A DNA stretch of 31,284 bases, taken from a virus. Location of the stretch: positions 1 through 31,284 of the IMG/VR virus record IMGVR_UViG_3300048102_000021. One strand, given 5' to 3'. The position numbers and the translations under genes are program-made. The notes beneath the pieces are model-generated. The model searched no databases and was not told the DNA's origin. It worked only from the letters and a program-made list of their open reading frames with translations. Shown here piece after piece: positions 2,455 through 25,949 of this stretch (positions are counted from its first letter, which is position 1; every line of letters starts with the position of its first letter).

Positions 2455-2925
2455 TTAACGTTTAACTGCAGAACTACCAACGTAGAAACTGAAGATGCTT
2501 AACATGATCTGATCATACGACGAACGAAACATTGCTGCGCCTTGAATGATTTCCCATTCTGTCCATCGTTTTGTTGTATCAATTAATCCAAACAAATAAT
2601 TCCCACCAGATGACTTCTCAACTGGCACTGCAATATCGATTGGCGTAAACATCGGCGCGAGACTAATAAATGCAACCATCGACAAAAATCCTAACACAAG
2701 TACACGTCGAGTTGCGCTTGAGAACCTGTCTTGTGTTCTTACTTTAAATTCTTTGTCGGCAATTTCTGCTCTGGCCTTCATATGCTCGACATCAAAGGCG
2801 AGCCTCTCCATCATCAGTTTTTGTTGATCCGCTTTCGCCTTCGCCGCATTTGCCACCAAGCCGCTGAATACGCCCACGAGATTGCTACCAATAGCGAGTA
2901 TAACTTCTGTCCCAAGTCCGAGCAT
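2455..2925 (-). CDS. holin-like membrane protein (3-TM type)
   Basis: A 156-residue protein with a hydrophobic N-terminal segment at 6-27, a charged helical stretch at 30-72, a clear membrane helix at 74-96 (after RR) and a weaker hydrophobic C-terminal segment at 138-153 ending in KR. This layout resembles the 3-TM holin family known from gene transfer agents and marine phages; no catalytic motif is visible. It would form inner-membrane lesions for lysis. Start chosen at ATG 2925 because the N-terminal hydrophobic segment belongs to the layout, yet no good ribosome site precedes it and the upstream endonuclease ORF runs 112 bases into it. It could equally be a virion or other membrane protein. 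No endolysin is visible nearby. Confidence 0.6.
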   Translation of the reverse strand: MLGLGTEVILAIGSNLVGVFSGLVANAAKAKADQQKLMMERLAFDVEHMKARAEIADKEFKVRTQDRFSSATRRVLVLGFLSMVAFISLAPMFTPIDIAVPVEKSSGGNYLFGLIDTTKRWTEWEIIQGAAMFRSSYDQIMLSIFSFYVGSSAVKR

Positions 2926-3290
2926 CTATGTTTAACTCTAAATTTAATTAAGTAAAATCCAGCATTCATTAACACTTTAAAACTGTCTTTATACATCCCA
3001 AGCCCCATGTTGCAGCGCTTGCACAGCATACCTCTTATTCTCCCACTATCGTGACAGTGGTCAACTGAAAGTGTGTCTATTGCGTCCTTAGTCCCTGTTT
3101 TTTTGCAAATTAAACAACGGTTTTGCTGGCTGTCTGCCAGATCCATCATCTCAGGCAGCGTTATTCCGTAACGAGTCCTTAAATGATAATCAGCATTTTC
3201 GCTTTTACTTCTTGTTCTTCTTTTTCTTTTTGGTTTTGACTGTTTTTGCTGTTTTGGCTGCTTTTTTAAATTGCTTGGCTGTTGGCGCAC
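2814..3290 (-). CDS. recombination endonuclease VII-like (His-Me/HNH) nuclease
   Basis: Endonuclease VII-family protein, expected to cut branched DNA before or during packaging. Visible signature: zinc ligands C59-x2-C62 and C90-x2-C93, with the catalytic D77-H78-C79-H80 and the R-I-R-G-M-L-C segment between them. The N-terminal 30 residues are extremely basic. The only available start is GTG at 3290, with a GGGAG ribosome site six bases before it, both lying inside an upstream 59-codon gene in another frame. Residues after about 117 look out of frame: they overlap the holin-like gene for 112 bases and have no family-like sequence. A lost stop codon or an indel near 2940 would explain the read-through tail. 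Confidence 0.82.
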   Translation of the reverse strand: MRQQPSNLKKQPKQQKQSKPKRKRRTRSKSENADYHLRTRYGITLPEMMDLADSQQNRCLICKKTGTKDAIDTLSVDHCHDSGRIRGMLCKRCNMGLGMYKDSFKVLMNAGFYLIKFRVKHRCSDLGQKLYSLLVAISWAYSAAWWQMRRRRKRINKN

Positions 3291-6927: not shown

Positions 6928-9020
6928 TAAAATCTACCGCCAGACACTGCACCGCTTGGGCGTTCATCTGGATATCTTGGCTCTTTCTGTGACTGCTTAA
7001 TGTTTTCAACATCAACTGATGTATCGTATTTGCCAAGTATTTCAGCGGCCTTAATAAGTAAATCTTGATCCATTTTATCGCGCTCTCGGTCGTCTTGAGC
7101 AATGGCTTTCTGTGCGTCAACTTCCATCTTAACCATGTCAGATTGAGCCTTGGCTTGCGCTTTGAGCTGTTCGGCTTGTACGAGCGCTTGACCGGGATCG
7201 AGCGGCATTGGCTTGCCTTGAGCCTGCTGTTGTTTCATCATGAGCAACTGCTGCTCGTATTCATCACTCATTGGCGTAAAGTATCTGTCGCTGTTTCTAA
7301 TTCCAGCAATCGCCATAATATCCGCCATCGTATTGCGAATAAGCGTCATTGATACGAGGCCGTTACCTGCTCCGTAACTTTGCCAGATCTGCATCTGCAT
7401 CTGTAACGTCTGCTGTAGGATAGCGATCTTTTCGTCTTCCTTGCCAGTGCCAAGACCAATGTTGCACATAACGTCCATGCTAGAGTTCCATGATCTTGGA
7501 TCAATTGGCACGAACTGGCTATTCATACGCATCATTTTCTCTTCGTCGGTGTTCTCAATAAAGAGTTTTAACATGAGCTTAAATAGGCGCTTCATACCGC
7601 CCTCGGCAAGATTGCGTGACATAACCTCAATCTGAGCCGCACCAGCTTGTTTTGTAATGTTTGCCGCAGTAGCGGTAGTATTCTGTAGAGCGTCTGGATC
7701 AAGGCCCATAGAGGCCCGAGAGACGCCTGTTTTAGTCTCGATGGCGTCATCCATATACTGAATGGCTGCGAGCGTCTGAGCGGCTACAAACGGCACTGAG
7801 ATAGGCACAATCGCCTGTGGATTCTTCATCCTGATAATGCCGCCAATCTCGTTGTTTAGCACGTCGTCGACGTTGACCTGATTGTCCACAATGCCTATGC
7901 GAGGATTGTTTGTTAGCGCAACGTTGTCTAAGACGCCCCTGAGCATCGCTGTAGATGCGTCCTGATCGTCATTGATAAGATCAGATATAGAGCGGCCAAA
8001 GAACGCATGAGGCTCAGGATCGACCTCAAACACGGCAAATGGGACTTCACTGTATGGCTCGTAATCTAGGAGCTGGTAGTCATTGCCGCCAAGCATAAAC
8101 TTGTAGAGCTGTGCGACGCCAGTTCCCTCGATGTCCATCTTCATGTACGCCTCGGTCACTGCTACCAGTTTCATTGATAGATCTTCGGTCGACTCTTCTT
8201 CTTCCTGCTGATATCCGCGACGCTCAAAATCTTCAACTTCGGAATATGTATCGCTAGATCCGATGCCAGTAAGATTAGATACTTTCTCAAAATCGTATCC
8301 CATGTTAACGAGATCAGATACGCGCATCTCGGTACGGTGCGCCACAACGTAAAAGTCATCAATTGACGTTGCATTCCTGTCCACCATAAATTCTTCTGGC
8401 GGAACAGATTTTACTTGAAGCATCCCTTTGTCAGTTTTTCGACTAATCGTGACACTATGCTCAGGAACTTCGATTTCCATTCCCATTTGATCCATCGAGA
8501 TAGAGACTTCTTGGCTATGTTCGATAACATCTACATTCTCCTCGTTAACGATGGCTGCAAACTCTTCATCAGTTAAGTTTGTAAAACTGTAAGTCTCAGC
8601 CTCTGTGTATTTGTCCCAATAAACTTTTAGGACGCCAGCCTTCTTAACCATTGCGTCGTGAAACGCATCATTTAACAAACTGTAACCATTAAGCTCATTA
8701 AATGCCCAGTGCATATATTGCGTTGCCTGTTGCGCAACGGAGACATCATCTTGGTTCGATGGAATGTACTCGACCGCTCGATCAGTCGATAAAAACACGC
8801 GCAATAGACTTGGTTTAATTGATCGTATTGTGTCGCGTACTTTTGTTGCGACTACTTTAGATCGACCGTCTTCTTCGCCAATATCTACTTCGCCATCAAA
8901 GTATCTTTGTGCCTTAATTCTGTCCTCAGAAATTTCGCTCTCAATAAAATCAACGGCATCCTGTACGGCCTGCTGCACGATGCTTTCAACTCTATCTTCA
9001 TCCATTTTCTCTGGCTTCAT
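6927..9020 (-). CDS. portal protein
   Basis: A 697-residue protein typical in length for P22/SU10-like portals. The start holds a helical region followed by G-R-S-K-V-V-A-T-K-V-R-D-T-I-R-S-I-K-P-S-L-L-R-V-F, a segment I associate with this portal type. The middle has EYIPSNQDDVSVAQQATQYMHW and the conserved-looking P-F-A-V-F-E-V-D-P-E-P-H-A-F-F-G-R-S-I-S-D-L. The C-terminal part is Gln-rich and helical, consistent with the barrel of long portals. It would form the twelve-fold ring at the packaging vertex. The gene lies eleven bases after the preceding virion gene and is followed by the head genes. Confidence 0.92.
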   Translation of the reverse strand: MKPEKMDEDRVESIVQQAVQDAVDFIESEISEDRIKAQRYFDGEVDIGEEDGRSKVVATKVRDTIRSIKPSLLRVFLSTDRAVEYIPSNQDDVSVAQQATQYMHWAFNELNGYSLLNDAFHDAMVKKAGVLKVYWDKYTEAETYSFTNLTDEEFAAIVNEENVDVIEHSQEVSISMDQMGMEIEVPEHSVTISRKTDKGMLQVKSVPPEEFMVDRNATSIDDFYVVAHRTEMRVSDLVNMGYDFEKVSNLTGIGSSDTYSEVEDFERRGYQQEEEESTEDLSMKLVAVTEAYMKMDIEGTGVAQLYKFMLGGNDYQLLDYEPYSEVPFAVFEVDPEPHAFFGRSISDLINDDQDASTAMLRGVLDNVALTNNPRIGIVDNQVNVDDVLNNEIGGIIRMKNPQAIVPISVPFVAAQTLAAIQYMDDAIETKTGVSRASMGLDPDALQNTTATAANITKQAGAAQIEVMSRNLAEGGMKRLFKLMLKLFIENTDEEKMMRMNSQFVPIDPRSWNSSMDVMCNIGLGTGKEDEKIAILQQTLQMQMQIWQSYGAGNGLVSMTLIRNTMADIMAIAGIRNSDRYFTPMSDEYEQQLLMMKQQQAQGKPMPLDPGQALVQAEQLKAQAKAQSDMVKMEVDAQKAIAQDDRERDKMDQDLLIKAAEILGKYDTSVDVENIKQSQKEPRYPDERPSGAVSGGRF

Positions 9021-14999: not shown

Positions 15000-15655
15000 G
15001 GCACATACAGTTCCGCCACAGATAACGTAACGGATGGTGATGCTGGGCAAAATGCAGTTGCCGCAGTCGTTGATAAAGAGCCATTTGTGCTATCTACGGC
15101 AAACATTGACTGCAAATAATCGTTGGCATTTACATCAAAAACGCCAGACCTGCTAATTATTTTCTTTTGCCCATTGTTGTGCAGCGTAGTCACCATCGTT
15201 GAGTTGTCTACATTAACGCCGTTAATTCTAGGCCAGAAATAAAACGTAACCGTACTGGCTGAACTTGAAGTAATCTCAGCGCTAAAATTTAATCGATATA
15301 TGCCAGACTTAGCAAACACAATCTTGCTTGCATCAGTACCGTCAATAGACACATTATGCGACGATGCGCTTGTGTTGTAAGTTATTGCTGTGGCGGTATC
15401 GGCTCCAGAGGCGGTCTGGTTGGTAAAATCTACAAAGTATCCATATGAGTTCTCACCGTATGGAATGGGCTGAAAAGCGCCATCAGTTGAGACGACCATA
15501 TGATTTATAGATGCGTCCCAAAGCATAATCCCATCGTCAGATGCAGAATCGCCATCCAAACGAAAATTTAATTTATTTTTTGTTCTAGCTAAAAAATTGT
15601 TAAGGCGCTCCGCCCATTCTCGCCAGCTGCCACCTAATGGTGGAGGCCCGGTCAA
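14996..15655 (-). CDS. tail fibre or tip protein with C1q-like C-terminus
   Basis: Residues 1-45 hold a conserved short N-terminal attachment-like segment (G-G-S-W-R-E-W-A-E-R-L-N-N-F-L). The rest, about 65-219, is beta-rich (Y-R-L-N-F-S-A-E-I-T-S-S followed by alternating Ser/Thr/Val) with the feel of a C1q/TNF-like jelly roll used as a receptor-binding tip in marine phages. Its start overlaps the stabiliser stop by four bases (ATGA) and its stop overlaps the GNAT-like gene by four. The assignment to tail adsorption is inferred from fold-like pattern and position. Confidence 0.75.
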   Translation of the reverse strand: MTGPPPLGGSWREWAERLNNFLARTKNKLNFRLDGDSASDDGIMLWDASINHMVVSTDGAFQPIPYGENSYGYFVDFTNQTASGADTATAITYNTSASSHNVSIDGTDASKIVFAKSGIYRLNFSAEITSSSASTVTFYFWPRINGVNVDNSTMVTTLHNNGQKKIISRSGVFDVNANDYLQSMFAVDSTNGSLSTTAATAFCPASPSVTLSVAELYVP

Positions 15656-17136
15656 CGCTTGCCTCCGGGCTTGGCCTCAATTCGCATCGTACCAACTCTC
15701 CAATCATTATTTACTTCTGTTTCAACTCTCATTCTAACTTGTCTGCCGCTGAATCTTACACTGGTTGGATTAGCCATTGCAAATGATCCAAACTCACTTT
15801 CTGTGCCGTTAGGATAAAAACGAGTCTTAAATTTGGCTGTTACATCCCCCTGAGTTAATTCATCTGGAATCAGGTTAGTGACGTGCATAATTTGATCTCC
15901 AGCACCAAGGCTTATTGGGCCAGACTCAACAAATTTAGTAGCGCCATCATGATTAAATCCATATTCTTGAAAATACAAATCACCATCTGGGCCAGCCCAC
16001 AATGGATATCTTAAAATTCCAGTATCAATTGCAGCCGTTCGAGACAGTTCGCCAATCATCCATATGTTGTCTTTGTAATCATACGATACATATCGATCAT
16101 TTTCTAAAGATCCCTCGCTAGGATAAAACCACCAAACCTCCGAAAAACGACTATTATGCGTCGCGTATACTTTACTAATTTGGTTTGTGTTTATATCTCG
16201 GAATATATGATCGCTAACCTCGCAATTAAGCTCTTTGACGATAGAGCCGTCAAACAAGAAAAATCCTTTTTGCCCCATCCAAAATGCAGCCTGATCAACA
16301 GTAACTAATGATTTTGGCGAATCTGTACCGCAGGCAGAACCAATTCGTTCAAATCCGTATACATACGGCGGCCCTTGATAAGTCGCAATGTGTGCGTCAA
16401 CGTCTGTAAGGATTAACGTGCGGCCTCTAATTCTAACTGCTGACCGAATGGTTCCAGAGGTCTGCAACTCAATGTCGCCAGCCTCATTAGTTGCCGCAGG
16501 AGTCCATGATGTTATGTTTTCTTTATCGCACCATTGTATTTTGCGAGGATTGCCGCCAGCGCCAAGTGCGAATAAAAAACGTTCCTCGGTAACAATTAAT
16601 GATTCATTATTTATGGGCGCATTAGTTACTGGCGCAGCCGGTGATCCTGATCCGCCGCTGATATCCCAAATGTGCAACTTTCTATCATCAGTAGAACATC
16701 CAACCAGATCCTCACCAAAGTTATCAAGCGCCCAAGTTGTCGCGGTCAACCAAATAGCGCCGGGAGTTCTTGGCGTACTGTATGATCCTGTGTTGTAGTA
16801 ACTGCCGCCGTATCCAGTGTTTTGCGTAGAATCTTCTCGCCCTGCGGTAAACGATGTTGGCGTGATATCAGCCACAGTGCCTGATGCATTAATATAATAA
16901 AGTTTGTTGTAGGTTCCTACCACAATATTGTTTGCACCACCTAAGTCACGCCAACCATGCATACCTCTAGGGGCAGCATCTATCCCAGATGTAACAAAAT
17001 CAGACCATCCGCCAACTGGACGCATACTGCCCTCAGACCAGCGTACTAAACTTGCATCACGCCATCTGTTTGATTGCTCGAACTCTGTGCCGTTTTTATA
17101 CACGCCCGGCGGTAACTTTATTGGAAGTAACGCCAT
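15652..17136 (-). CDS. P22 gp10-like tail/DNA-stabilisation protein
   Basis: A 494-residue protein with the family-type opening K-L-P-P-G-V-Y-K-N-G-T-E-F, W-R-D-A-S-L-V-R-W and M-R-P-V-G-G-W within residues 8-44, then a long beta-rich body with repeated W/Y/G turns consistent with a propeller-like fold. P22 gp10 and its relatives close the portal vertex and hold packaged DNA. This fits the adaptor gene and portal elsewhere in the window. The start at 17136 is directly beside the end of the zinc-ribbon gene (one base). Confidence 0.82.
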   Translation of the reverse strand: MALLPIKLPPGVYKNGTEFEQSNRWRDASLVRWSEGSMRPVGGWSDFVTSGIDAAPRGMHGWRDLGGANNIVVGTYNKLYYINASGTVADITPTSFTAGREDSTQNTGYGGSYYNTGSYSTPRTPGAIWLTATTWALDNFGEDLVGCSTDDRKLHIWDISGGSGSPAAPVTNAPINNESLIVTEERFLFALGAGGNPRKIQWCDKENITSWTPAATNEAGDIELQTSGTIRSAVRIRGRTLILTDVDAHIATYQGPPYVYGFERIGSACGTDSPKSLVTVDQAAFWMGQKGFFLFDGSIVKELNCEVSDHIFRDINTNQISKVYATHNSRFSEVWWFYPSEGSLENDRYVSYDYKDNIWMIGELSRTAAIDTGILRYPLWAGPDGDLYFQEYGFNHDGATKFVESGPISLGAGDQIMHVTNLIPDELTQGDVTAKFKTRFYPNGTESEFGSFAMANPTSVRFSGRQVRMRVETEVNNDWRVGTMRIEAKPGGKR

Positions 17137-17304
17137 TTACAGTTCCTCAGCTTTCCATTTTTTCATTGGACATTCTGCATTTTTTATTCTAGCTTTTAGA
17201 TAAATAACGCACCCGCATTTGTTACAAACATTAACGCCTAACGCTGTTGTTTTATGTTTGCAAGAATTGCACAAATTAATTCTATTTTCTACGAATTCTC
17301 CCAT
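17137..17304 (-). CDS. zinc-ribbon miniprotein, second copy
   Basis: A 55-residue protein (start ATG 17304; a TTG at 17319 would extend it but is the weaker choice). It has C-x2-C (LCNSC), C-x2-C-x-C (VCNKCGC) and a final C-P-x-x-K-W, a small zinc-binding ribbon. Its C-terminal half, C-x-x-C-G-C-V-x-(Y/F)-(L/M)-K-A-R-I-x-x-x-x-C-P, matches the gene immediately upstream, so it is a tandem paralogue. It overlaps that gene by 16 bases. Related short zinc ribbons are known in marine phages (DUF6171-like); function unknown. Partner binding or fibre assembly are possibilities. Confidence 0.78.
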   Translation of the reverse strand: MGEFVENRINLCNSCKHKTTALGVNVCNKCGCVIYLKARIKNAECPMKKWKAEEL

Positions 17305-17471
17305 TTTCCCTCTGGGCAAAATTGATCAATAATTCTGGCTTTCATAAAAGTAACGCATCCGCAGGCATTGCAAAAATCTTGAGCCGGATCTTTTGATGGG
17401 CAAGTCTTACAAACTGCTAATCTAGCGTCTTGTATTTCTTGTGAAGCTAAATATTCTTCTTCTAAAGACAT
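17289..17471 (-). CDS. zinc-ribbon miniprotein, first copy
   Basis: A 60-residue protein with an N-terminal helix (SLEEEYLASQEIQDARLAV) and a zinc ribbon: C-x2-C (VCKTC), C-x2-C-x-C (FCNACGC) and C-P-E-G-K-W. It is clearly related to the following gene but keeps the N-terminal helix. The ATG shares one base with the stop of the tail-adhesin gene (TAATG). It lies between the adhesin and the gp10-like stabiliser. Zinc binding is inferred from cysteine spacing; function unknown. Confidence 0.8.
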   Translation of the reverse strand: MSLEEEYLASQEIQDARLAVCKTCPSKDPAQDFCNACGCVTFMKARIIDQFCPEGKWENS

Positions 17472-18616
17472 TATCTAATCCTTATGGCTATTTTTGAGTT
17501 ACCTGTATAGTATGGGCTGTTACTTTGATTTGATCCTGATCCTTGATATGTTGCGCTTCCAGCACTAGCAGCAGATCCAACAAATCCAGATCCACCTCCT
17601 GATCCAGCGCTAGAACATGGCGGATTAGTTGAGCTTCCTCCGGGATAGTATCCGCCACCGCCAGTTGAGTAAGTGCAGGTTTCAAAACCTGATGCAATCC
17701 AAGATCCTATTAATCTGCTTGGGCAAGTTCTAAATACAGCTCCAGATATCCCAGAGCATGAACTGTAACAAGCGTTATTAATGTTAGGCAAATAAAAACT
17801 TCCATGATTGGATTGGCTTGCAGGACGATTGCCTCCGCCAGAGGTTCCCCCGCCAACATATCCTTGTGATGACATTCCGCCAGCTATGCCCCATATGTTT
17901 GAGTCGGCAGTAATTTTAGACGCATCTCGGTAACTTGTTGTGCTGCTATATGGATGAGCAGAAAACAATCCACTCCAACCATTGGTTACTTGGTTTTGGC
18001 TTGCGCATCCAAATCTATCCCATTGGAACCTACAAACTCCAGAAAAACCGTCATTCCAAACGCCTTGTGATGCGACGACGTAATAAACAGTTCCAGTAGT
18101 TGTCCCCATGTTAATGTAAGTATAACCACCTCGACCAGAACTTCCCCCGCCCCAGACTTCCGCAGAAACTGATGTTGGAGCAATTGTTCCAAATTGATCT
18201 GGAATGGCTGTTGGAATAACATAAGATCCAGTTAATCCGGTGTAACTTGCCTCAAATGCAAACTCCCCAACGTAGTTAGATCTAACTTGAGGATTTGATA
18301 CATTTTCTATACTAGCAAACATTTTAGATCCAGCGACCCACGCCTTAGTAGATGCTTGGCCTTGATAAGTTACTGCGCCGCTAATATTTATACTGTACCA
18401 ATGCGCATTCGCGCCAAGATTAGATGTGTAAACAGCAGTTGATTGATACTCAGTGCCAGACGATAAAGTGACTGTGATGCCAGCGTAAAATTGATCCCAA
18501 TTGCCACTGTTTTTTACATATCCAGCCTTGACGGTTTGCCAATCGCCACTGTCTTTAGCATACAAAACATTGACCAACTCCCATTGACCGTCTTTTTTAA
18601 CATATGTTCTAGCCAT
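17471..18616 (-). CDS. glycine-rich tail adhesin with Y-x-K-x-x-G-x-W repeats
   Basis: A 381-residue protein beginning [12 protein letters not shown]; this ATG (18616) shares one base with the preceding stop, so the ORF's longer start at 18631 is rejected. Three exact 14-residue repeats of Y-(V/A)-K-x-x-G-x-W occupy residues 5-40. A beta-rich middle follows, and about the last 130 residues are Gly/Ser-rich (G-G-G-G-Y-Y-P-G-G-S-S, G-S-G-G-G-S-G-F), ending NSKIAIRIR. The repeats look like a virion attachment or ordered stalk, and the Gly-rich end could be a polyglycine adhesin. Cysteines are scattered through the Gly-rich part (C-S-S-C). Host-recognition role is inferred. Confidence 0.78.
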   Translation of the reverse strand: MARTYVKKDGQWELVNVLYAKDSGDWQTVKAGYVKNSGNWDQFYAGITVTLSSGTEYQSTAVYTSNLGANAHWYSINISGAVTYQGQASTKAWVAGSKMFASIENVSNPQVRSNYVGEFAFEASYTGLTGSYVIPTAIPDQFGTIAPTSVSAEVWGGGSSGRGGYTYINMGTTTGTVYYVVASQGVWNDGFSGVCRFQWDRFGCASQNQVTNGWSGLFSAHPYSSTTSYRDASKITADSNIWGIAGGMSSQGYVGGGTSGGGNRPASQSNHGSFYLPNINNACYSSCSGISGAVFRTCPSRLIGSWIASGFETCTYSTGGGGYYPGGSSTNPPCSSAGSGGGSGFVGSAASAGSATYQGSGSNQSNSPYYTGNSKIAIRIR

Positions 18617-19119
18617 TATATTTGATACCAAATATCTCCGTCAGATCCTCCAGATGGGGCGCTTGTACTTATTGTTCTCGCACCAAATCCATTTGATCCT
18701 GTAGTGTCTGTAATATTTGTTAGCGCTGCTTGCTTTGCATCTAACTGAGTCTGTACCGCAGACGTTACTCCGTCAACAAAATTTAATTCTGCGGCTGAGG
18801 TTGTTACGCCAGATAATATATTTAGTTCTGCCACCGTTGATGCGATCCCATCAAGCGCGTTTAACTCAGTTGCCGTCGATGTGATCGCAGTTCCGTTAAT
18901 AGACAGTGCGCTAAAATTACCAGTTGATGCGGTAGTGGCTCCAATTGCAGTGTTGTCAATAGCTCCAGAATTAATATCGATACCAGTAACAGGTGTTGTG
19001 CCGTCCAATAAGTCATCAAGCGTGTCGAGCGTTATATTTATTTTACTTCCCCAAGTGTTTTCAGACGCGCCAACCTCTGGCTTGACCAGTGCATACGTCG
19101 TCGTTGTTGTATCTGCCAT
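18616..19119 (-). CDS. tail fibre protein with A-E-L-N repeats
   Basis: A 167-residue protein with the common marine fibre opening ([26 protein letters not shown]), then three 13-residue repeats of (A/T)-E-L-N-x-x-x-G-(I/V), then A-x-x-T-Q-L-D-A-K-Q, ending in [15 protein letters not shown]. The repeats are the triple-stranded stalk type seen in cyanophage and other marine tail fibres. It is short, so it may form a stalk completed by the adhesin, whose start shares its stop codon (TAATG). Confidence 0.82.
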
Positions 19120-19135
19120 CTATATCTCCTGTTAA

Positions 19136-19303
19136 TTAATCTGCTGGTTCAGGTGTGTTGCCCTCAGCCAACCACTCTAAGTATTCTTGATAGTCTGTGT
19201 TATTTTCATCGAATATAAAAGATTTTAATGGAACAGTCCCAACAGTCATAACTGCATTAGGTTCTTCTTTATCTGGGTCTGTTCTATAAAGTTTATAATT
19301 CAT
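19136..19303 (-). CDS. tail fibre-associated miniprotein (NTDYQEYL..AEGNTPEP)
   Basis: A 55-residue protein starting at ATG 19303 (ATGA overlap with the preceding fibre stop), not at the long ORF start 19447, which would run through the fibre gene. It contains P-L-K-S-F-I-F-D-E-N-N-T-D-Y-Q-E-Y-L-E-W-L and A-E-G-N-T-P-E-P. Proteins ending this way sit directly after marine phage tail fibres and are thought to assist their folding or attachment. Chaperone role is inferred from that association. Confidence 0.8.
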   Translation of the reverse strand: MNYKLYRTDPDKEEPNAVMTVGTVPLKSFIFDENNTDYQEYLEWLAEGNTPEPAD

Positions 19304-20304
19304 AGTTCGCATCCTGTAAAATAAAGATATCCGCTTGAGTTCTGTGATCGTAAAAAAGTACCTTGCCCAGAACTTAAACCTGAAGAAACACTTCCAGTAA
19401 CTCTTCCTCCAGAAGTTCCTGCAGCAGAAAAATTTAATGCGGTGCAAGTAATTCCACTTGATGTGGGACCACCTACCTGAAAATTACTATCAGTGCCATG
19501 TATAATTCCAGTAGGAGCTACACGAGTTTGCACTTTCCAAGGAATAAAAATAAGCCAAGAAGTGCTTCCAGTAGCATATCCAATACCTAGTTGATCGTCA
19601 GTACCTGAACCAAACCAAGGCAAGTACCTCTGACACAACTGCAACTCAGTCGTATACGGTCTATGCTCAAACTCAGTAGCTGACTCACCGACCTCTAGCT
19701 GGACTCCTGTAATGTACATTGTGCAGTTTGTATCAACACTCCAAAGCATACTAAACGACAAATCTCCAGCAGCAACTGTATCTGCGTTAGTAAAAGTATG
19801 TGTAAATCTTTGCCAAGTTGTTGTAAGAGAATCAGATGTTGTTACTGTTTGTGTATTACCGCCACCAAGTGCTGAAGCTGCATATCTATATTGAAAAGTG
19901 CCGTTAGCAGTACCTGTGTTTATTTTTGCGTAATATGAAACTGTTAATGTTTCATCTAATCTACCTGCTTTCCCATCAGCAGGTAGTTCAACTGCGTGTC
20001 TAAAATCTTGTCCTGAAGCAGTTCTTGTAAAAGACATTGAATACTCTAATCCTGTGTTTGCAGGAGCATCAGAAGATTGTGCTAAAGTTACAGATGTACC
20101 GTTAGCATTTACAATAAACCTATCAACAGAAAGATAACCAGTGCTTGATGTTGACCCACTTGTCCCACGCTGTGCAATCTGCATCGCACCATTGATGATT
20201 AAGTTCTTACCTACTACGTTATTAACGTTAGGCGTGACTCCATTGATGGTTGTTGTGTTGCCATCGTTAGCATCTGTAATTGCATTGACTGCGATTGTAC
20301 TCAT
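19300..20304 (-). CDS. large tail fibre protein with lectin-like body
   Basis: A 334-residue protein. The N-terminus (M-S-T-I-A-V-N-A-I-T-D-A-N-D-G-N-T-T-T-I-N-G-V) is a common marine fibre opening. N-L-I-I-N-G-A-M-Q-I-A-Q-R-G-T-S and V-D-R-F follow around 33-63, the start of a beta-sandwich seen in carbohydrate-binding fibre proteins. F-x-F-x-x-R-P-Y-type ending of that domain (E-F-E-H-R-P-Y) is near 222, and a variable Ser/Gly-rich tip ends the protein. It likely binds a surface glycan. It is followed by a 55-residue miniprotein and preceded by an XkdW-like gene, both in four-base overlap. Confidence 0.82.
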   Translation of the reverse strand: MSTIAVNAITDANDGNTTTINGVTPNVNNVVGKNLIINGAMQIAQRGTSGSTSSTGYLSVDRFIVNANGTSVTLAQSSDAPANTGLEYSMSFTRTASGQDFRHAVELPADGKAGRLDETLTVSYYAKINTGTANGTFQYRYAASALGGGNTQTVTTSDSLTTTWQRFTHTFTNADTVAAGDLSFSMLWSVDTNCTMYITGVQLEVGESATEFEHRPYTTELQLCQRYLPWFGSGTDDQLGIGYATGSTSWLIFIPWKVQTRVAPTGIIHGTDSNFQVGGPTSSGITCTALNFSAAGTSGGRVTGSVSSGLSSGQGTFLRSQNSSGYLYFTGCEL

Positions 20305-20597
20305 GTCTTAGGATACCTTTCTTTAACTGCTTGAATCTGTGCAGCCATGTCATCAGGAAACACACCAGCGTGATACAGTGCGTCTAGCTGATCGCCTATT
20401 GCTGGATACTCTGTAACACGACTACGAGCATATTGATTTGCGTCATACTCAGCTTGTAATCTAATTACTTCAGCATCTATCTCTGCGTCAGTTGGTTGGT
20501 TTTGTACTAAATCTTGCCAAATAATAGTATTTCCAACCATGTGAAAATCAGCATTAGGGCGCAAAGAAAGCAATGCTGTTGGTTTATCTATAATCAT
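20301..20597 (-). CDS. XkdW-like tail fibre assembly protein, copy B
   Basis: A 98-residue protein with Q-P-T-D-A-E-I-D-A-E-V-I-R-L-Q, Y-A-R-S-R, Y-P-A-I-G-D-Q-L-D and a final V-K-x-x-Y-P-K-T, the pattern of XkdW-like proteins placed after tail-fibre genes. It is a paralogue of the gene at 22422-22736. At the DNA level the 17-base string at 20470-20486 is identical to 22594-22610, which argues for recent duplication or conversion. Four-base overlaps link it to the gene after; it touches the gene before at base 20597. A fibre chaperone role is inferred. Confidence 0.82.
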   Translation of the reverse strand: MIIDKPTALLSLRPNADFHMVGNTIIWQDLVQNQPTDAEIDAEVIRLQAEYDANQYARSRVTEYPAIGDQLDALYHAGVFPDDMAAQIQAVKERYPKT

Positions 20598-21190
20598 TAT
20601 CCAGCGATCTCCAATAGTGTCATTCTACTTGTACCACCGTTATAGTTTAGTCTGGCTTGCTCTCCAGCTTGCTTACTTACTTGTAAAACGTAAGTGAGTT
20701 GTGATGTTGTAGAAGGGGAATCTAACCAATTTATTGGTAAATTAATACTTGTTAAAATACCACTCCCACCATAATCATAAGTCTGACCTGTAGATGCTGC
20801 ACTTGCGGTAGCTCCTACTGCTCGGTAAAGTCTAAATAAAGCATGAGCAGAGTTTCCAGAAGATAAGTAATACATCATTGCTACGTCTGCTACTACAAAA
20901 ATTTTATTACTCGTGCTAGATGGAGTAATAACTCCACTAAAAGAAGATGTAGATGTGTAAGAACCTGATGTAAAAGTTTCTTGTGTAGTTGATTGAGTTT
21001 GAACTACTTGCAATACTTTACCAAGTCCACCGTTAATCATTGTCTCAGTAACTGTTCCTGTATCGCCTGTAGTTACTACATTTCCTGTGACATCAGGTAA
21101 CGTCAGAGTTCTATCTGTGTTGCTATTAGGGGCAGCAATGGTAAAGTCACCTGTCCCACTAGCGTGTCCCTGAATAACAACTTTACTCAT
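20597..21190 (-). CDS. tail fibre tip protein with C1q-like body
   Basis: A 197-residue protein. Residues 1-45 (MSKVVIQGHASGTGDFTIAAP, then D-R-T-L-T-L-P-D-V-T-G) are the usual marine short-fibre opening. The body from about 60 (L-Q-V-V-Q-T-Q-S-T-T) is a beta-rich C1q-like tip with N-K-I-F-V-V-A-D-V strands. It resembles the gene at 22733-23221 in layout, so it is a second tip module of the same type. Its ATG touches the preceding stop by one base and its stop touches the XkdW-like start. Confidence 0.78.
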   Translation of the reverse strand: MSKVVIQGHASGTGDFTIAAPNSNTDRTLTLPDVTGNVVTTGDTGTVTETMINGGLGKVLQVVQTQSTTQETFTSGSYTSTSSFSGVITPSSTSNKIFVVADVAMMYYLSSGNSAHALFRLYRAVGATASAASTGQTYDYGGSGILTSINLPINWLDSPSTTSQLTYVLQVSKQAGEQARLNYNGGTSRMTLLEIAG

Positions 21191-21429
21191 TACATATTCT
21201 CCACAACAGTTGTCAGTGCGTCTACATCCGCAGCAGCATCGATGTCAGTCTGTGCTGTCTCGTACTTAGTCCTGATAGCAGCCCTAGCCGTCTCAGCAGC
21301 GTCAGCATCAGCACTAGGAATCTGCTTAGATATGATGTCATCGTGTGGCTTAAACTCCTCCTCACGATTAGCTCTACGCATCTCATGTGCAATAGTCTTA
21401 GCTTTAGTCAAGTTAGTTGTGATCGGCAT
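21190..21429 (-). CDS. fibre-associated helical miniprotein, 79 residues
   Basis: Starts at ATG 21429 (MPITTNLTKAK), sharing one base with the preceding stop (TAATG); the start at 21444 is rejected as it overlaps the upstream gene. Mostly helical and charged: A-H-E-M-R-R-A-N-R-E-E-E-F-K-P-H-D-D-I-I, then a Glu/Asp/Ala-rich coiled coil. I know this type from marine phage fibre clusters; it is probably an assembly helper, but no reaction or fold is shown. Confidence 0.75.
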   Translation of the reverse strand: MPITTNLTKAKTIAHEMRRANREEEFKPHDDIISKQIPSADADAAETARAAIRTKYETAQTDIDAAADVDALTTVVENM

Positions 21430-21617
21430 TATGAATACTCCCAAGCATTTCTAAAAGTTCTATCGCTAGGCACGTCAGTTACATCTACAATCTGATACGC
21501 TACACCAGTAGGTACATCCTTATCTGCGATCTGTTCTATTGTTAATCCACAGTTAGGAGCAGGTACTATGACTGCAACTCCTCCGTCATCTGTGGGATAT
21601 ATAATTCTTTTATCCAT
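21429..21617 (-). CDS. fibre-associated miniprotein (MDKRIIYPTDDGGVAVIVPAP)
   Basis: A 62-residue protein starting MDKRIIYPTDDGGVAV, with P-A-P-N-C-G-L-T-I-E-Q-I-A and ending S-D-R-T-F-R-N-A-W-E-Y-S. Proteins of this exact kind occur in tail-fibre clusters of marine phages. It is likely a fibre-assembly or tip-cap protein, unproven. It shares one base with the next gene. Confidence 0.8.
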   Translation of the reverse strand: MDKRIIYPTDDGGVAVIVPAPNCGLTIEQIADKDVPTGVAYQIVDVTDVPSDRTFRNAWEYS

Positions 21618-21634
21618 TATTGCTCCTTGTTAAG

Positions 21635-22030
21635 TTACCTAAAGACTGCTGCCATTACTGTGTTGCAGTCAAATGAAGTGGTTGGTCCTCCAGTATTAAT
21701 TCTTACACTACCTGCTGCAGGATTAGATCCAATTTCATCAATTTTAAACAAAGCGTCTGTTGTTCCAGAGTCTGCCTCTTTAGCTGATCCTGAAACAGCA
21801 TAGTTTGCGTCAGTCATTGCGTTGGTAAAATTAATAGTGTAGTCACCTGCACCGTTATCAGTAATGCTACCTACATTAAACGATCCTCTAATAGCTACAG
21901 TACCAGTACCATTAAAGTTAACCCATGCCTTTGCAGATCCGTTAATCACATTAGTGACCGCAGTAGACTCTGTGTCTAACTCGTCAGCTATTGTTGTTGT
22001 CTTTACTTTCCCTGTTTTAAGTGTACTCAT
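21635..22030 (-). CDS. short tail fibre tip protein, copy B
   Basis: A 131-residue beta-rich protein with A-K-A-W-V-N-F-N-G-T-G-T and S-I-T-D-N-G-A-G-D-Y-T-I-N-F-T-N-A-M-T, then D-A-N-Y. These blocks are shared almost residue for residue with the upstream gene 22054-22425, so the two are paralogues placed in tandem. Both read as complete small tips starting MST(L/V)K. A cell-surface receptor-binding role is inferred from the fibre-tip family. Confidence 0.82.
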   Translation of the reverse strand: MSTLKTGKVKTTTIADELDTESTAVTNVINGSAKAWVNFNGTGTVAIRGSFNVGSITDNGAGDYTINFTNAMTDANYAVSGSAKEADSGTTDALFKIDEIGSNPAAGSVRINTGGPTTSFDCNTVMAAVFR

Positions 22031-22053
22031 TTGATTTACCTAAAGACTGCTAC

Positions 22054-22425
22054 TTATCGAATAACTTGAATAGACACAAGTTCATTATCCCTAGTTGTTC
22101 TGTTTACGGTTGAACTTGCAATAGCTGACTGCACTTGCAATGCAGAGGCTGTTCTTATTCCGCCTGTTGGTGCTTCTATAGTAGTTACACCGCTTGTGGC
22201 TTCTTCAAATGAAGATGTTGAAAAAGAATAATTTGCGTCAGTCATAGCAGTAGTAAAAGTAATTGTATAATCACCAGTGCCGTTATCAGTAATACTACTT
22301 ACATTCCCAGATGCTCTAATCATATTACCTGCTGTTTGTGTGCCATCAAAGTTAACCCACGCCTTGCAGGTATAGACTTCTACGTTGCCAGTGGTCTTGA
22401 TTGTGTCTACCTTAACTGTACTCAT
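22054..22425 (-). CDS. short tail fibre tip protein, copy A
   Basis: A 123-residue paralogue of the gene at 21635-22030. Shared blocks: K-A-W-V-N-F-D-G-T, S-S-I-T-D-N-G-T-G-D-Y-T-I-T-F-T-T-A-M-T and D-A-N-Y. The end (T-V-N-R-T-T-R-D-N-E-L-V-S-I-Q-V-I-R) differs completely from the copy downstream, showing that the tip end varies while the core is kept. It follows the XkdW-like gene with a four-base overlap and is separated from copy B by 23 bases. Confidence 0.82.
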   Translation of the reverse strand: MSTVKVDTIKTTGNVEVYTCKAWVNFDGTQTAGNMIRASGNVSSITDNGTGDYTITFTTAMTDANYSFSTSSFEEATSGVTTIEAPTGGIRTASALQVQSAIASSTVNRTTRDNELVSIQVIR

Positions 22426-22736
22426 GGCTTAGGATTCTCCGTCTTAACAGCAGCAATAGCATCCTTCCAAGTAGTTGTACCATTCACACTATCCCAGTAC
22501 TGCATATCGAGTTGCTCTTGTATTGATGGATAAGCTGATGCTCTGTCTCTTGCGTACTGTTTAGCATCGTACTCAGTTTGTAGTCTAATAACCTCAGCAT
22601 CTATCTCTGCATCTGTTGGTTGTGTTTGCTCTGTGTCTAACCACTCAAGGACATCACCACGCATTGCCCATTGTGCGTCAGGACGTAAAGAAACAATTGC
22701 ATCTACTTTGTCAGCAACTCCATCTAAGTTAATCAT
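22422..22736 (-). CDS. XkdW-like tail fibre assembly protein, copy A
   Basis: A 104-residue protein aligned with the gene at 20301-20597: Q-P-T-D-A-E-I-D-A-E-V-I-R-L-Q, D-A-K-Q-Y-A-R-D-R, Y-P-S-I-Q-E-Q-L-D and an ending N-P-K-P. It shares a 17-base identical DNA string with its paralogue (22594-22610). It is four-base coupled to the tip gene before it and to the tip gene after it, which is why a chaperone for those tips is likely. Confidence 0.82.
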   Translation of the reverse strand: MINLDGVADKVDAIVSLRPDAQWAMRGDVLEWLDTEQTQPTDAEIDAEVIRLQTEYDAKQYARDRASAYPSIQEQLDMQYWDSVNGTTTWKDAIAAVKTENPKP

Positions 22737-23221
22737 TGTGCAATCTCCGTAGCTGATAAAGAAACACAGTTCGGATAAACAGTACTTGACGCACCTACGC
22801 CAGCACCTCCAATAGTGACTGTTCCAGAATAAGTTTTTGCAAAAATATTATAAGTAACTGTAGAAGTTGTGTTTGGAGAATCAATTATAAACATAGATAC
22901 GTTTTGCCAAAATGCTGTGTAATAAGCTACACTTCCTGTAAGACCGTTAGCAGAATCTCCACTTAAACCTGTTGTTCCATTTCTATAAATATCCATAGCA
23001 ACATAATGAGCAGAAGATAATACTGACGCAGCAAAGTCTATTTTAATTTTACTATTTGCAAATTTAGGCGTAATAGATACTTCAAAACCAGTATCAGTAA
23101 GTGTTGACACTGCTGCACTAAATTTTGGACGTGCTGTACTGTCGTATGTAACTTGTATTATCTTGCCTTGATTATCAGTACCAGCAGTATCTTGTATACT
23201 ATCAACTCTTAGCGTACTCAT
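22733..23221 (-). CDS. tail fibre tip protein with C1q-like body
   Basis: A 162-residue protein with a short marine fibre opening (MSTLRVDSIQDTAGTDNQGK), then K-I-I-Q-V-T-Y-D-S-T-A and beta-strand blocks such as P-K-F-A-N-S-K-I-K-I-D-F-A-A-S-V, similar in layout to the gene at 20597-21190. It is followed by its XkdW-like gene in four-base overlap and preceded by a 60-residue fibre-like miniprotein, also overlapping. Receptor-binding is inferred from family and place. Confidence 0.78.
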   Translation of the reverse strand: MSTLRVDSIQDTAGTDNQGKIIQVTYDSTARPKFSAAVSTLTDTGFEVSITPKFANSKIKIDFAASVLSSAHYVAMDIYRNGTTGLSGDSANGLTGSVAYYTAFWQNVSMFIIDSPNTTSTVTYNIFAKTYSGTVTIGGAGVGASSTVYPNCVSLSATEIAQ

Positions 23222-23400
23222 AAGATCACCCAGTTCCCACCGCTTGTCACAGTTACTGTAACGCCACTACTAATCTCTATGTCACCAATGCTTGCAGCGT
23301 TCTTAGTTGCAGCAATCGTGTAGTCAGCGTCTATGCTTTGTTCGTTCTCTATAAAGTTAGGAATTTGTATTCCTGTAGTTCCATTAATTACAACTGCCAT
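23218..23400 (-). CDS. tail fibre miniprotein, 60 residues
   Basis: A 60-residue protein: MAVVINGTTGIQIPNF, then Y-T-I-A-A-T-K-N-A-A-S-I-G-D, then S-S-G-V-T-V-T-V-T-S-G-G-N-W-V-I-L. Its last 40 residues resemble the last 40 of the fibre gene 24000-24509 (Y-A-I-T-S-G-N-N-A-I-S-A-G, S-G-V-S-V-T-V-P-S-G-S-S-W-K-V-V). It looks like a stand-alone copy of that C-terminal module. It overlaps the next gene's start by four bases. Confidence 0.75.
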   Translation of the reverse strand: MAVVINGTTGIQIPNFIENEQSIDADYTIAATKNAASIGDIEISSGVTVTVTSGGNWVIL

Positions 23401-23408
23401 ATATTCAC

Positions 23409-23999
23409 CTATGCCGCTAATTTAGTCCAAATTTCTGAGTTCTCAGACTGCTTTGACCATGTCTCTGCATTTGCAGATTGTTTAGTCCAAGACTCTACAT
23501 TAATTACTGAATCTTCCCACTTCTTTCTTGCCGATGCGGTAATTGCAGATGCCCCATTAATCGAGGCTGATCCAAACTTTATTGCATTCCCATTTGCGCT
23601 AACAGTAGAAACAACGTTAATTGTTGCACTTGCAGCAACTATAGTAACTGCGTTAGCATTTATATTTGATACAGCAGAAACAAGAGCAATCCCAGATTGG
23701 ATTTTGTTAGCTGTAGCGGTAACAGTAGACGTTGCAGCAATTGTTGCCGTGTTATCACGATCTCGGATGTATACAATCGATGTAACCGAGGCCCCGGCAG
23801 ATAACGAATCAGACTCGCGAACTCTTGTGCCGCTCGATGTTACTGTCGCCGTACTTGCAATGGCAGATGCTGCATCAATAACGATTCCTGCGCTTGCGGT
23901 GACGCTCGAGGCAGCAGTTACCGTTGCTGCGGCGTCAACAAAGTTAATTGCGCCTTCAGCAGAAAACGGTTGTTCACTAAATGCGTTTATGCCAAACAA
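23409..23999 (-). CDS. 20-residue-repeat virion protein with tryptophan decad repeat
   Basis: A 196-residue protein of two repeat blocks. Residues 23-160 hold seven units of about 20 residues with the core S-x-V-T-A-x-A/G; core hydrophobics fall at residues 33, 53, 72, 93, 113, 133 and 153. Residues 161-196 hold Trp at 161, 171, 181 and 191, exactly ten apart, with (T/S)-K after three of them. The regular Ala/Val/Ser/Thr units suggest a beta-solenoid or stacked stalk; the Trp block may be a binding or docking end. It begins directly after the fibre gene stop and precedes the 60-residue fibre piece. I do not know a named family. Confidence 0.78.
   Translation of the reverse strand: MFGINAFSEQPFSAEGAINFVDAAATVTAASSVTASAGIVIDAASAIASTATVTSSGTRVRESDSLSAGASVTSIVYIRDRDNTATIAATSTVTATANKIQSGIALVSAVSNINANAVTIVAASATINVVSTVSANGNAIKFGSASINGASAITASARKKWEDSVINVESWTKQSANAETWSKQSENSEIWTKLAA
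23434..23930 (-). repeat. 60-base and 30-base coding repeats inside 23409-23999
   Basis: The protein periods of 20 and 10 residues correspond to DNA units of 60 and 30 bases on the minus strand. Identity between units is kept mainly at the protein level and not base for base, so the repeat is old or selected at the protein level. Boundaries are approximate. Confidence 0.6.
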
Positions 24000-24509
24000 T
24001 TAAACAACTTTCCAGCTAGATCCTGACGGCACAGTGACGCTAACGCCAGAATTAACGGTTAATGGGCCAGCGGATATTGCGTTGTTTCCACTGGTGATCG
24101 CGTAGTTTGATGCAATCGTGTGCGTATGCTCAAATATGGCGCCAGAGATAATGCCGCCAACAGACGTTAAGTCTGCCGGAACGTTTACATCATCGTTTGA
24201 GTCGGCATATATTGATTTTTCGGCAGGATAAGTAACAAATACATCTTTTGTCCCAACGCCAAGATTTAACGCACTGCCAGAGTTTGACGACTCTAGTATC
24301 GTTGTGCGACTTAACGTTGTCCCGGAGGCTGTATAAGTACCTAATCCAACCTCGTAGTCATTGCCAGACACAATCGCATAGTATGTCGTGTTACCGTCGC
24401 CTACAGCGGAAAAAGATTGAAAGCCGTCTGCGGCTCCGGCAAGAGTTAACGTGCCTGTCCCAGTCGTTGTACTTGTTTCCTTGACTCGATCCTTTACAAC
24501 TAGAGCCAT
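24000..24509 (-). CDS. tail fibre protein with common N-terminal attachment domain
   Basis: A 169-residue protein with the familiar marine fibre opening (M-A-L-V-V-K-D-R-V-K-E-T-S-T-T-T-G-T-G-T-L-T-L), G-F-Q-S-F-S and G-D-G-N-T-T-Y-Y-A-I, then L-S-R-T-T-I-L-E-S-S-N-S-G. This N-terminal domain typically attaches fibres to the virion and is followed by a variable tip. Here the tip is short and ends S-G-V-S-V-T-V-P-S-G-S-S-W-K-V-V. The C-terminal forty residues recur in the 60-residue gene downstream. Confidence 0.82.
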   Translation of the reverse strand: MALVVKDRVKETSTTTGTGTLTLAGAADGFQSFSAVGDGNTTYYAIVSGNDYEVGLGTYTASGTTLSRTTILESSNSGSALNLGVGTKDVFVTYPAEKSIYADSNDDVNVPADLTSVGGIISGAIFEHTHTIASNYAITSGNNAISAGPLTVNSGVSVTVPSGSSWKVV

Positions 24510-24517
24510 ATCAGTCC

Positions 24518-24898
24518 TTAATCAAGCGTTATGTCTAAATCTCCGGCTGGAACACGAAACACGTCGCCAGATTCAATTGCTTTTGATGCAGATAAAGTTG
24601 CATAACAAAGTAAATTGCCGGAACTTGATGCATCAAACACGCCAACATGGCTCACTGTGCCATAATTACCAGTAGCAGTTGGAAATTCAATAGAGCCAGA
24701 GTTTGTCGCTGTGTTTCCAGATACCGTAAACGCAGCAGTTTGCCTTGCGTAAGCTGATCCAGATACCTCTGTGCCGCCGCCAGCTTCACCGGGCGCACCA
24801 GTAAACAACGCCAAATAAAGCGTTGACGGTGCAGTGTAAGCGCTGTTTGTAAAGACGTGATCTAACAGCTCAGTCTCTAAATAGTTTGAAAAGCTCAT
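24518..24898 (-). CDS. tail protein (LYLALFTGAPGEAGGGTEVSG type)
   Basis: A 126-residue protein with S-T-L-Y-L-A-L-F-T-G-A-P and G-G-G-T-E-V-S-G-S-A-Y-A-R-Q, then N-S-G-S-I-E-F-P-T-A-T-G-N-Y-G-T-V-S-H-V-G-V-F-D. This is a widespread small phage tail protein of unknown exact role that sits between adaptor and fibres, plausibly a fibre-attachment or collar component. Its start overlaps the adaptor stop by four bases. Confidence 0.82.
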   Translation of the reverse strand: MSFSNYLETELLDHVFTNSAYTAPSTLYLALFTGAPGEAGGGTEVSGSAYARQTAAFTVSGNTATNSGSIEFPTATGNYGTVSHVGVFDASSSGNLLCYATLSASKAIESGDVFRVPAGDLDITLD

Positions 24899-25521
24899 CC
24901 TAGTCCTCTCACTTTAAGTTTTAATCCAGATCCAGACATTCTGGATCGATCTGATGATTCGTTTAATCTTGCAGCTGCTGCCGCATACAACTGCGCCCAA
25001 ACTGTGATCCGTGCATCTTCCTGCAAGTATGGCGCAGAATGCATTAGCGATCCATATAAATATACATCGGGCGAGTCATCTAGCAACCAGTTATCGCTAT
25101 TTGACGCTAAATCAGGCACTTTAGCAAAGTACAACAGCTCAAGCGTGTAGTCTGCATCCGGCGTCGGATAGAAGTTAAACTGCCCATCTGCGTGAGTGTA
25201 ATACTCAGGCCGACCAGACACATCCTCGGCGCCAGCACGTTTATCTGCCATAGCGTCTCGAGATATTAAATTAACAACGGTTGTGCCGGTGCCTTGTATG
25301 CTGACTCGAATTGTTTCCATCCAGTCGGCTGGCACTTGCGAGTATTGATCGCCAGCATCTATCGTTGCCGTTGATCGAGTCTCCATCTTGTAGTGCCGAA
25401 TATCGCGATTGATTTGCGACTCTGCCAGCTGAATGAACGTTGGGATGACTGCCGTTAGATCACTTCTATTGAGGTAATCGGCGACTGTCGATTGCAGTGT
25501 GCTGTAGTTTGTTATTGTCAT
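24895..25521 (-). CDS. head-tail adaptor (SU10/P22 gp4-like)
   Basis: A 208-residue protein with the opening L-Q-S-T-V-A-D-Y-L-N-R-S-D-L, F-I-Q-L-A-E-S-Q-I-N-R-D-I-R, then Y-S-Q-V-P-A-D-W-M-E, R-P-E-Y-Y, F-N-F-Y-P-T-P, L-L-Y-F-A-K-V-P. These blocks are those of the phage adaptor family that docks under the portal in SU10-like podoviruses. It links the portal ring to the tail. Its start overlaps the upstream unassigned gene by four bases, its stop overlaps the tail gene by four. Confidence 0.87.
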   Translation of the reverse strand: MTITNYSTLQSTVADYLNRSDLTAVIPTFIQLAESQINRDIRHYKMETRSTATIDAGDQYSQVPADWMETIRVSIQGTGTTVVNLISRDAMADKRAGAEDVSGRPEYYTHADGQFNFYPTPDADYTLELLYFAKVPDLASNSDNWLLDDSPDVYLYGSLMHSAPYLQEDARITVWAQLYAAAAARLNESSDRSRMSGSGLKLKVRGLG

Positions 25522-25949
25522 AGCCCTATTCCCGGTTTGCGGTCAAATAATGGTACTGGCGGCGCCTTATAGTTATCTTGAAACAAATTATAAATATCTT
25601 TTCTTAAATCTTGATTTAAATAATTAAACTCATGCATTAAAAATTTTGCTGGATCATCAAGGCCGTTTTGTCCAAAATAATTAGTTAAATAGTCAACCAT
25701 CTCTGGAGACATGTTTTCTCTAGTAAAAGCATCTTGAGGCCTTATTGACGGATCATTTCCGTATCCATGTTGATCCATAACGCCGCCGGGATTAATATTT
25801 GGATCTCCGCCATAAACATAATCATCTTTTCTTTGCTGCTCACGAATAGATGCTTCCTCTCGTTCCTTAGCAAAATCCAAGAACTTACTACCAAGTCCTT
25901 TTGCGCCTTGGACAAACTGATCTAACAATCCTAATTTTTTATCTGGCAT
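25518..25949 (-). CDS. hypothetical AT-rich protein, 143 residues
   Basis: I do not recognise this protein. It begins with a basic helix (MPDKKLGLLDQFVQGAKGLGSKFLDFAKER), then a Gly/Asp/Asn-rich part with two G-Y-G-N-D-P-like motifs, and ends with an aromatic/acidic region (FLMHEFNYLNQDLRKDIYNLF). It is AT-rich like the gene before it, with which it forms a pair four bases apart. It could be a small virion or cargo-associated protein; no domain supports a sharper call. Confidence 0.65.
   Translation of the reverse strand: MPDKKLGLLDQFVQGAKGLGSKFLDFAKEREEASIREQQRKDDYVYGGDPNINPGGVMDQHGYGNDPSIRPQDAFTRENMSPEMVDYLTNYFGQNGLDDPAKFLMHEFNYLNQDLRKDIYNLFQDNYKAPPVPLFDRKPGIGL

Follow-up and report, generated by a model that had tools for sequence, protein, structure and literature searches.

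A putative adhesin rack with several slots in the tail of an SU10-type marine podophage, exchanged in units of tip body and half helper

In this study, we analysed an array of short tail-fibre ("tip") genes in the marine bacterial virus record IMGVR_UViG_3300048102_000021, whose complete 31,284-base sequence is called the window below and whose protein profile matches identify it as an SU10-type podophage. The array lies on the minus strand, forms one operon bounded by the genes of fibre I protein Gp80 and of the tail nozzle, and has the gene order T1, T1b, T1c, T2, H1, T3, T4, M1, M2, T5, H2, T6, M3, T7, T8, D1, D2. Our analyses suggested, with a probability of roughly two in three (0.68), that it is a multi-slot adhesin rack of the SU10-type tail module, that it has been diversified by homologous recombination and that its helpers (H1, H2 and M3) are tip-specific chaperones. 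The portion from T1c to M3 is gained, lost and shared among phages. The unit exchanged within it is the body of a tip together with the N-terminal half of the following helper, and the start of the tip and the end of the helper stay with the slot.

The related loci compared (L numbers below) are nearly all metagenome contigs, and their genes were called with a simple script. In close relatives, namely L002/L083 with about 96.5% flank DNA identity to the window and L005 with about 91-94%, the array has the order of the window, but T2, T5 and T6 carry other bodies and T3 and T4 other ends, and for some slots similarity to the window is unrecognisable. The original prediction had held that tips and helpers are gained and lost as cassettes, and had named a fixed order free of cassette variation among close relatives as the observation that would speak against it; order and number are otherwise fixed in these relatives, yet the bodies or ends of T2-T6 are exchanged.

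Conservation, profiled across 23 rack-bearing loci, rises and falls like a saw-tooth. The conserved blocks comprise T1c with the first residues of T2 (23400-23170), the C-half of H1 with the core of T3 (22560-22230), the T4 core (22050-21810), M1 and M2 with the T5 anchor (21630-21095), the C-half of H2 with the T6 anchor (20410-20160), a hinge inside T6 (19715-19625) and the C-half of M3 (19214-19150). The variable blocks start in a tip body, run over the gene overlap and end in the middle of the helper, and it is this crossing that defines the exchange unit. Alignment against relatives and contigs showed both the swapping of tip with helper and the gain and loss of whole slots, as had been predicted, but the borders lie inside the tip and inside the following helper rather than at the overlaps. 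The same pattern was found on another trunk fibre (backbone B), where L167 and L171 differ at the T3 end, the T4 end, T5, H2 and the T6 mid-body despite 95-97% identity along about 12 kb.

Slots can also be lost: among relatives H2 is missing, as in L027, where no helper stands behind T5, or T3-T4-M1-M2. In L005 (4694-4954) and L024 (7145-7405), an 86-residue protein (MADYTVTLTDAEDKSLRY...) unrelated to H2 fills the place between T5 and T6, and it accompanies another T5 body type. In L177 a helper whose N-half is of the H1 type and whose C-half is of the H2 type stands behind a T2-type body and before T6. Its junction falls at the border marked by a 92-nucleotide (nt) direct repeat, located at the internal helper border in H2 (20428-20519) with a 77% copy in H1 (22552-22643). 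Only the helper chimera is claimed here and not a cassette moved between slots, the N-terminus of the L177 tip being lost at the contig end. A tie between the helper C-half and the next tip was also considered and dropped, as H1-type C-halves precede T5, not T3, in L174, L088 and L240.

Three of the tips are followed by a helper. First, T2 (22733-23221) combines a conserved N-terminus with an exchangeable, predicted TNF/C1q-like body (11 body types in 25 loci), and its helper H1 (22422-22736) has an N-half that tracks the T2 body and a C-half fixed to the slot. Second, T5 (20597-21190) has an anchor of ~36 residues and an exchangeable body that aligns with the T2 family (23 types in 34 loci), and the helper H2 (20301-20597), 53% identical to H1, is divided in the same way, its N-half tracking the T5 body. 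Third, T6 (19300-20304), which matches tail-fibre family phrog_4492 (E = 4.9e-36), consists according to the conservation profile of an anchor, an exchangeable mid-body (20160-19716), the conserved hinge and an exchangeable C-end (19625-19300; 24 types in 29 loci), and the small helper M3 (19136-19303) has an N-half that varies with this C-end and a fixed C-half. The remaining tips, T3 (22054-22425) and T4 (21635-22030), both match tail-fibre family phrog_11355 (E = 7e-15 and E = 2.2e-21) and have conserved cores followed by ~55 and ~50 variable last residues (20 C-end types in 25 loci and 13 in 19, respectively). The two share 53% identity in the first 80-90 residues (with a 107-nt DNA repeat at 79%) and have unrelated ends, which bears out the shared cores with unrelated ends that had been noticed in the window.

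Linkage between tips and helpers was assessed in 38 non-redundant related loci or arrays with a permutation test and was limited to loci with slot anchors. In an initial Mantel test that took in every locus with an H1-like gene, the correlations had been weak, as the majority of such loci are not of the rack type. All 51 pairs with the same T2 body had the helper N-half type in common (14.4 expected, permutation p 0.0002), and all nine pairs with the same T5 body shared the helper type (2.4 expected). T6 was clustered by its C-end, as clustering of whole T6 had hidden the M3 linkage, and the M3 N-half was in common in four of five pairs with the same C-end (0.6 expected). As a control against common descent, the comparison was restricted to pairs from different backbones, and the helper type was then shared by 23 of 23 pairs with the same T2 body, against 21 of 162 with a different body. 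One helper type may go with several bodies, and the reverse was unseen for T2 and T5. Tips of different slots assort independently of one another: no cross-slot linkage was significant (T2-T4 0/49, T3-T4 0/6, T5-T6 0/10, and T2-T3 3/51 with p 0.07).

Part of this independence might be produced by metagenome assembly, with contigs jumping between co-occurring variants at the conserved blocks; almost all loci are assembled contigs, and such blocks reach about 540 bp (21628-21091). We consider this explanation improbable. Assemblies with different names show the same combinations (L002/L004, L163/L164/L165, L166/L167, L181/L182 and L250/L251), though some of them may come from the same sample. 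Neither the wealth of body types in each slot nor the sharing between backbones is affected by how slots were joined.

The rack is also present in phages that have neither the adaptor nor the nozzle of the window, and its conserved blocks are there 83-97% identical in DNA. Five trunk types were found in front of it, namely the T1 of the window and types B (L162-L171; capsid PF19821), C (L246), D (L250; phage T7 tail-fibre N-domain PF03906, E 1.5e-43) and E (L316). The capsid families differ as well, with the SU10 major capsid protein PF17236 in the window versus PF19821 in L171. Trunks B-E have related shaft repeats (28-63%) and different N-termini, none of which is like the N-part of T1. Their last 46 residues, in contrast, are almost invariant, are 59-64% identical to residues 124-169 at the C-terminus of T1 (24000-24509) over all four types, and are identical to one another in L171, L169, L164 and L246, where they are 64% like those of T1. 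This 46-residue piece may be a socket for the rack. It is repeated in T1c (23218-23400), a 60-residue protein and the first gene of the portable rack, which has ~45 C-terminal residues in common with T1 at 39% identity. T1c lies directly behind the trunk in other backbones; in the window T1b (23409-23999), an Ala/Ser-rich backbone protein with a TTG start (ATG in L027), intervenes. Homologues of T1b, T7, Gp80, the adaptor and the nozzle are present in relatives without tips. The original prediction had counted all eight of its listed genes as fibres or tips, but T1 is probably the trunk that carries the tips, and T7 is probably a backbone fibre gene, since its homologues occur in relatives without T2-T6.

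Sharing across backbones also bears on ordinary fast divergence under positive selection within lineages, without exchange. Tip ends are the fastest-changing parts of phages, and the T2 or T5 bodies can mostly be aligned as one family, which would fit such divergence. However, T2-H1 of the window is 92-93% identical in DNA to backbone-B loci L163-L165, and L083, with flanks at 96.5%, has a different body; L167 and L171 switch abruptly between blocks of 95-97% identity; and the ratio of non-synonymous to synonymous rates (dN/dS) of T2 is 0.22 between the window and L165. We therefore regard divergence without exchange as very improbable. Wherever dN/dS could be measured between the window and relatives, it was 0.03-0.47, which indicates that the array genes are coding, translated and under purifying selection.

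We tentatively extend the rack reading one step further, at odds somewhat short of even: the rack may be independent of the backbone, a 46-residue socket on unrelated trunks accepting slot-coded tips, so that phages of different capsid and tail types would draw tip body plus helper N-half units from a common pool and one virion would carry several separately exchangeable adhesins.

Another possibility is that T1, T1c and T2-T6 are stacked end to end as a composite fibre, a single heteromeric receptor-binding organ rather than several alternative adhesins. The fixed gene order fits a fixed stacking order. In addition, L038, whose nozzle is 86% identical, has at 7650-9020 the first ~104 residues of T1 fused to a T6-type protein and lacks T2-T5 and the socket, which indicates that T6 can sit directly on a trunk. 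A BLAST suggestion that L038 keeps the T1 socket was ruled out by its sequence. Stacking is nevertheless unlikely in our view, as H2 or T3-T4-M1-M2 can be missing with the other slots kept, the only constant parts are the N-termini and the helper C-halves, and independent assortment is harder to reconcile with neighbours that must each bind an adjacent variable end.

The array had also been thought to serve fast switching of adsorption. In the invertible segments of Mu and P1 (S/U genes), the variable fibre end and the helper gene move together, the fibre start is constant, and a recombinase acts between inverted repeats. The layout of constant start, variable end and helper seen here resembles these segments, and a programmed switch within the lineage, by site-specific inversion of the Mu/P1 type or by a diversity-generating retroelement, might be proposed on this ground. 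No inverted repeat of at least 20 nt was found in 17300-25600, however, and among the scanned window proteins there was no reverse transcriptase or invertase, with the proviso that the virus record may be a fragment; the small terminase gave one weak "DNA invertase" profile match (E 0.008), far below its terminase match. The bodies differ in their whole sequence and length, not by point changes. These findings make programmed switching so unlikely that we give it almost no weight. In contrast to Mu and P1, exchange here takes place between phages, inverted repeats are absent and the unit ends in mid-helper.

The AlphaFold model of T2 (pLDDT 80) is a TNF/C1q-like jelly-roll, and its Foldseek matches, with E 1e-5 to 1e-3 and template-modelling (TM) scores of 0.4-0.6, include Pgp3, PLTL, BC2L-C and the heads of human C1q, among which PLTL and BC2L-C are glycan-binding lectins. 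On this model T2, and by alignment to the T2 family T5, would belong to the TNF/C1q-like lectin fold. A further match of the T2/T5 profile is to the last 170 residues of orf22 in PDB 9efk (658 residues, 18 chains; E 1e-24), which indicates that this domain also exists as the end of a longer protein. T6 gave a weak match to a carbohydrate-binding domain. For H1, the model (pLDDT 92.7) shows a helix, a beta hairpin and a helical C-half. The genes between the tips had been called XkdW-like, a label that we do not retain, as no array protein matches the XkdW model of Pfam. Relative to the Tfa, DUF4376 and Caudo_TAP chaperones, the helpers have the position behind a fibre and the specificity for its end, and no curated model of these matched them.

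Several points weigh against reading the array as a rack of adhesins with chaperones. The chaperone label comes from position, covariation and a weak match of the H1 model to a "tail assembly chaperone-like" protein in BFVD (TM 0.64, E 0.088). The H1 model had no match in the PDB and its fold has no solved relative there, and H1 and H2 had no Pfam match at E<=1 and matched only PHROG families of unknown function. The linkage of T5 and T6 comes from few pairs (nine and five), and the M3 N-half of L002 differs from that of L011/L162 despite a similar T6 end. Some of the metagenome contigs may be chimeric across the long conserved blocks, which would have inflated slot independence. Finally, some of the tips might be absent from the virion, and socket docking is suggested by gene order and conservation only.

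If the rack reading is right, the trunk fibre T1 would end in its 46-residue socket, with T1c and the five short tips T2-T6 behind it. Each tip would dock by a slot-specific N-terminal plug, leaving an exchangeable distal body to bind a surface structure. The helpers made right after T2, T5 and T6 would fold or cap the body of the preceding tip, the helper N-half recognising that body and the C-half being constant for the slot. When phages co-infect a cell, homologous recombination between them would cross over in the conserved plugs and in the C-halves of the helpers, replacing one unit of tip body and helper N-half at a time and leaving the remaining rack intact. In addition, the whole rack could have passed from phage to phage even where capsids and trunk fibres are unrelated, any trunk bearing a socket being able to carry it. 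Binding of multiple receptors by the array, as first predicted, is plausible, and the rack may let these viruses change their attachment target piece by piece. With regard to recombination functions, the window encodes Holliday-junction-resolvase-like (1319-1714) and endonuclease VII-like (2814-3290) genes, and no recombinase was recognised in it.

The eight fibre or tip genes listed at the outset are all intact on the minus strand, and the tight packing described for the array applies to most neighbours. Overlaps of 4 nt join T1c/T2, T2/H1, H1/T3, H2/T6 and T6/M3, overlaps of 1 nt join M1/M2, M2/T5, T5/H2, T7/T8 and T8/D1, but T3/T4, T4/M1 and M3/T7 are set apart by about 16-23 nt. The 4-nt overlap is repeated among relatives in 39 cases of tip to helper and 32 cases of helper to next gene. 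The miniproteins M1 (21429-21617) and M2 (21190-21429) form a pair kept in the rack, at 84-98% and 70-96% in rack-bearing loci, respectively. Cyanophage 9515-10a (L313, 3486-3949) carries an M1 homologue after a very large gene, which has 5,127 bases and probably codes for a fibre, and before a small gene of M2 size; M1 and M2 may long have accompanied phage fibres as a pair.

Downstream of the rack, T7 (18616-19119) and the glycine-rich adhesin-like T8 (17471-18616) precede two tandem overlapping zinc-ribbon genes of the DUF6171 family, D1 (17289-17471; PF19668, E = 3.9e-8) and D2 (17137-17304; E = 1.9e-7), which together span 17137-17471; one such gene stands behind T8-like genes in L024 and L171, which suggests that the end of T7, T8 and the zinc-ribbon gene are a separate module. 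T8 is 99% conserved in L002 and L005, whose T2-T6 differ, and the last 29 residues of T7 (139-167) are shared, at 69-72%, by fibres immediately upstream of a T8-like gene in L167 and L171. T7 itself was seen in two states among the window, L027, L038, L013, L008 and L018: short and followed by T8, as in the window, or of ~257-271 residues with its own C-terminal domain ending in FMWKRTA and no T8. The two states resemble the gp37/gp38 alternative in T-even phages.

The flanks are those of an SU10/GP4-type podophage tail. The window has an SU10-type portal (PF23899, E 1e-195) and capsid (PF17236, E 2e-81), and upstream of the array lie the tail adaptor (24895-25521; PF24175, E = 1.9e-41; 99.5% identical in L002) and the fibre I protein Gp80 (24518-24898; PF23140, E = 1.2e-46; PDB 8jou chain a, E = 2.3e-12), both on the minus strand, as is the downstream nozzle (15652-17136; phrog_3287, E = 2.7e-85; PDB 8zkk "nozzle gp16", E = 7.8e-9). 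Membership of Gp80 in PF23140, the family of fibre I gp80 of podophage GP4, places the rack in the tail module; no counterpart of the rack genes was established in GP4 in this analysis. Among relatives the interval from Gp80 to the nozzle spans 0.56-9.1 kb, the low end being found in relatives without tips, and it holds only four genes in Octadecabacter Antarctic DB virus 2, which of the isolate relatives is the best annotated. In L105 (12110-13994) the gene ends in this interval resemble, by eye, a 2-oxoglutarate oxygenase and a fatty-acid desaturase, and the interval of other relatives may also hold metabolic genes. A near-identity search for the rack in 50,697 phage records gave no match, and no isolate bearing the rack was found among phage records. 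On a genome contig of Ascidiaceihabitans (Rhodobacterales; L383, 7513-8288), a T5-like tip and an H1-like helper lie beside a fibre with a T7-like-looking start, a hint of Rhodobacterales as the host group to which the Octadecabacter virus also points.

Exchange of fibre ends between phages is already well known. The array provides a natural set of tip-helper pairs, both matched and unmatched, and raises the testable questions of what sets the pairing and whether unrelated marine phages draw adhesins from one pool via a common socket. In the open-licence papers covered, we found no description of the rack or of PDB 9efk, nor of several adjacent slots under one exchange rule, mid-helper borders or a common socket on the trunks of different phages. 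The Alteromonas phages A5, V22 and P24, from unrelated marine phage families, have in common a module of one tail fibre and one cognate DUF4376 chaperone that acts on the preceding fibre (PMC10579305); here five slots are exchangeable, the borders lie inside tip and helper, and the helper has no Pfam match. Hypervariable metaviromic islands of marine phages contain many tail-fibre, C1q-like and "XkdW" genes, and under-recruiting domains lie within their genes (PMC3909814). The region studied here is likewise variable among otherwise near-identical phages, and slots, tip-helper linkage, portable trunk sockets and independent assortment are not described in the passages of that report considered here. 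The branched tailspike complex of Ackermannviridae also gives one phage several receptor-binding proteins with conserved N-terminal docking parts and exchangeable genes, and an added tailspike gene led there to recombination or deletion among its neighbours (PMC11414711), but those are tailspikes of another phage family without helper half-swaps, and the proteins here have 120-335 residues. For phage receptor-binding proteins, recent swaps of the C-terminal binding domain behind N-termini that are nearly identical were likewise reported (PMC10684548), there in single proteins and here repeated over five adjacent slots and across gene borders. Compared with these systems, what sets the array apart is several independent slots under a repeating rule of fixed plug, swapped body with half helper and fixed helper end, common to phages of different architecture.

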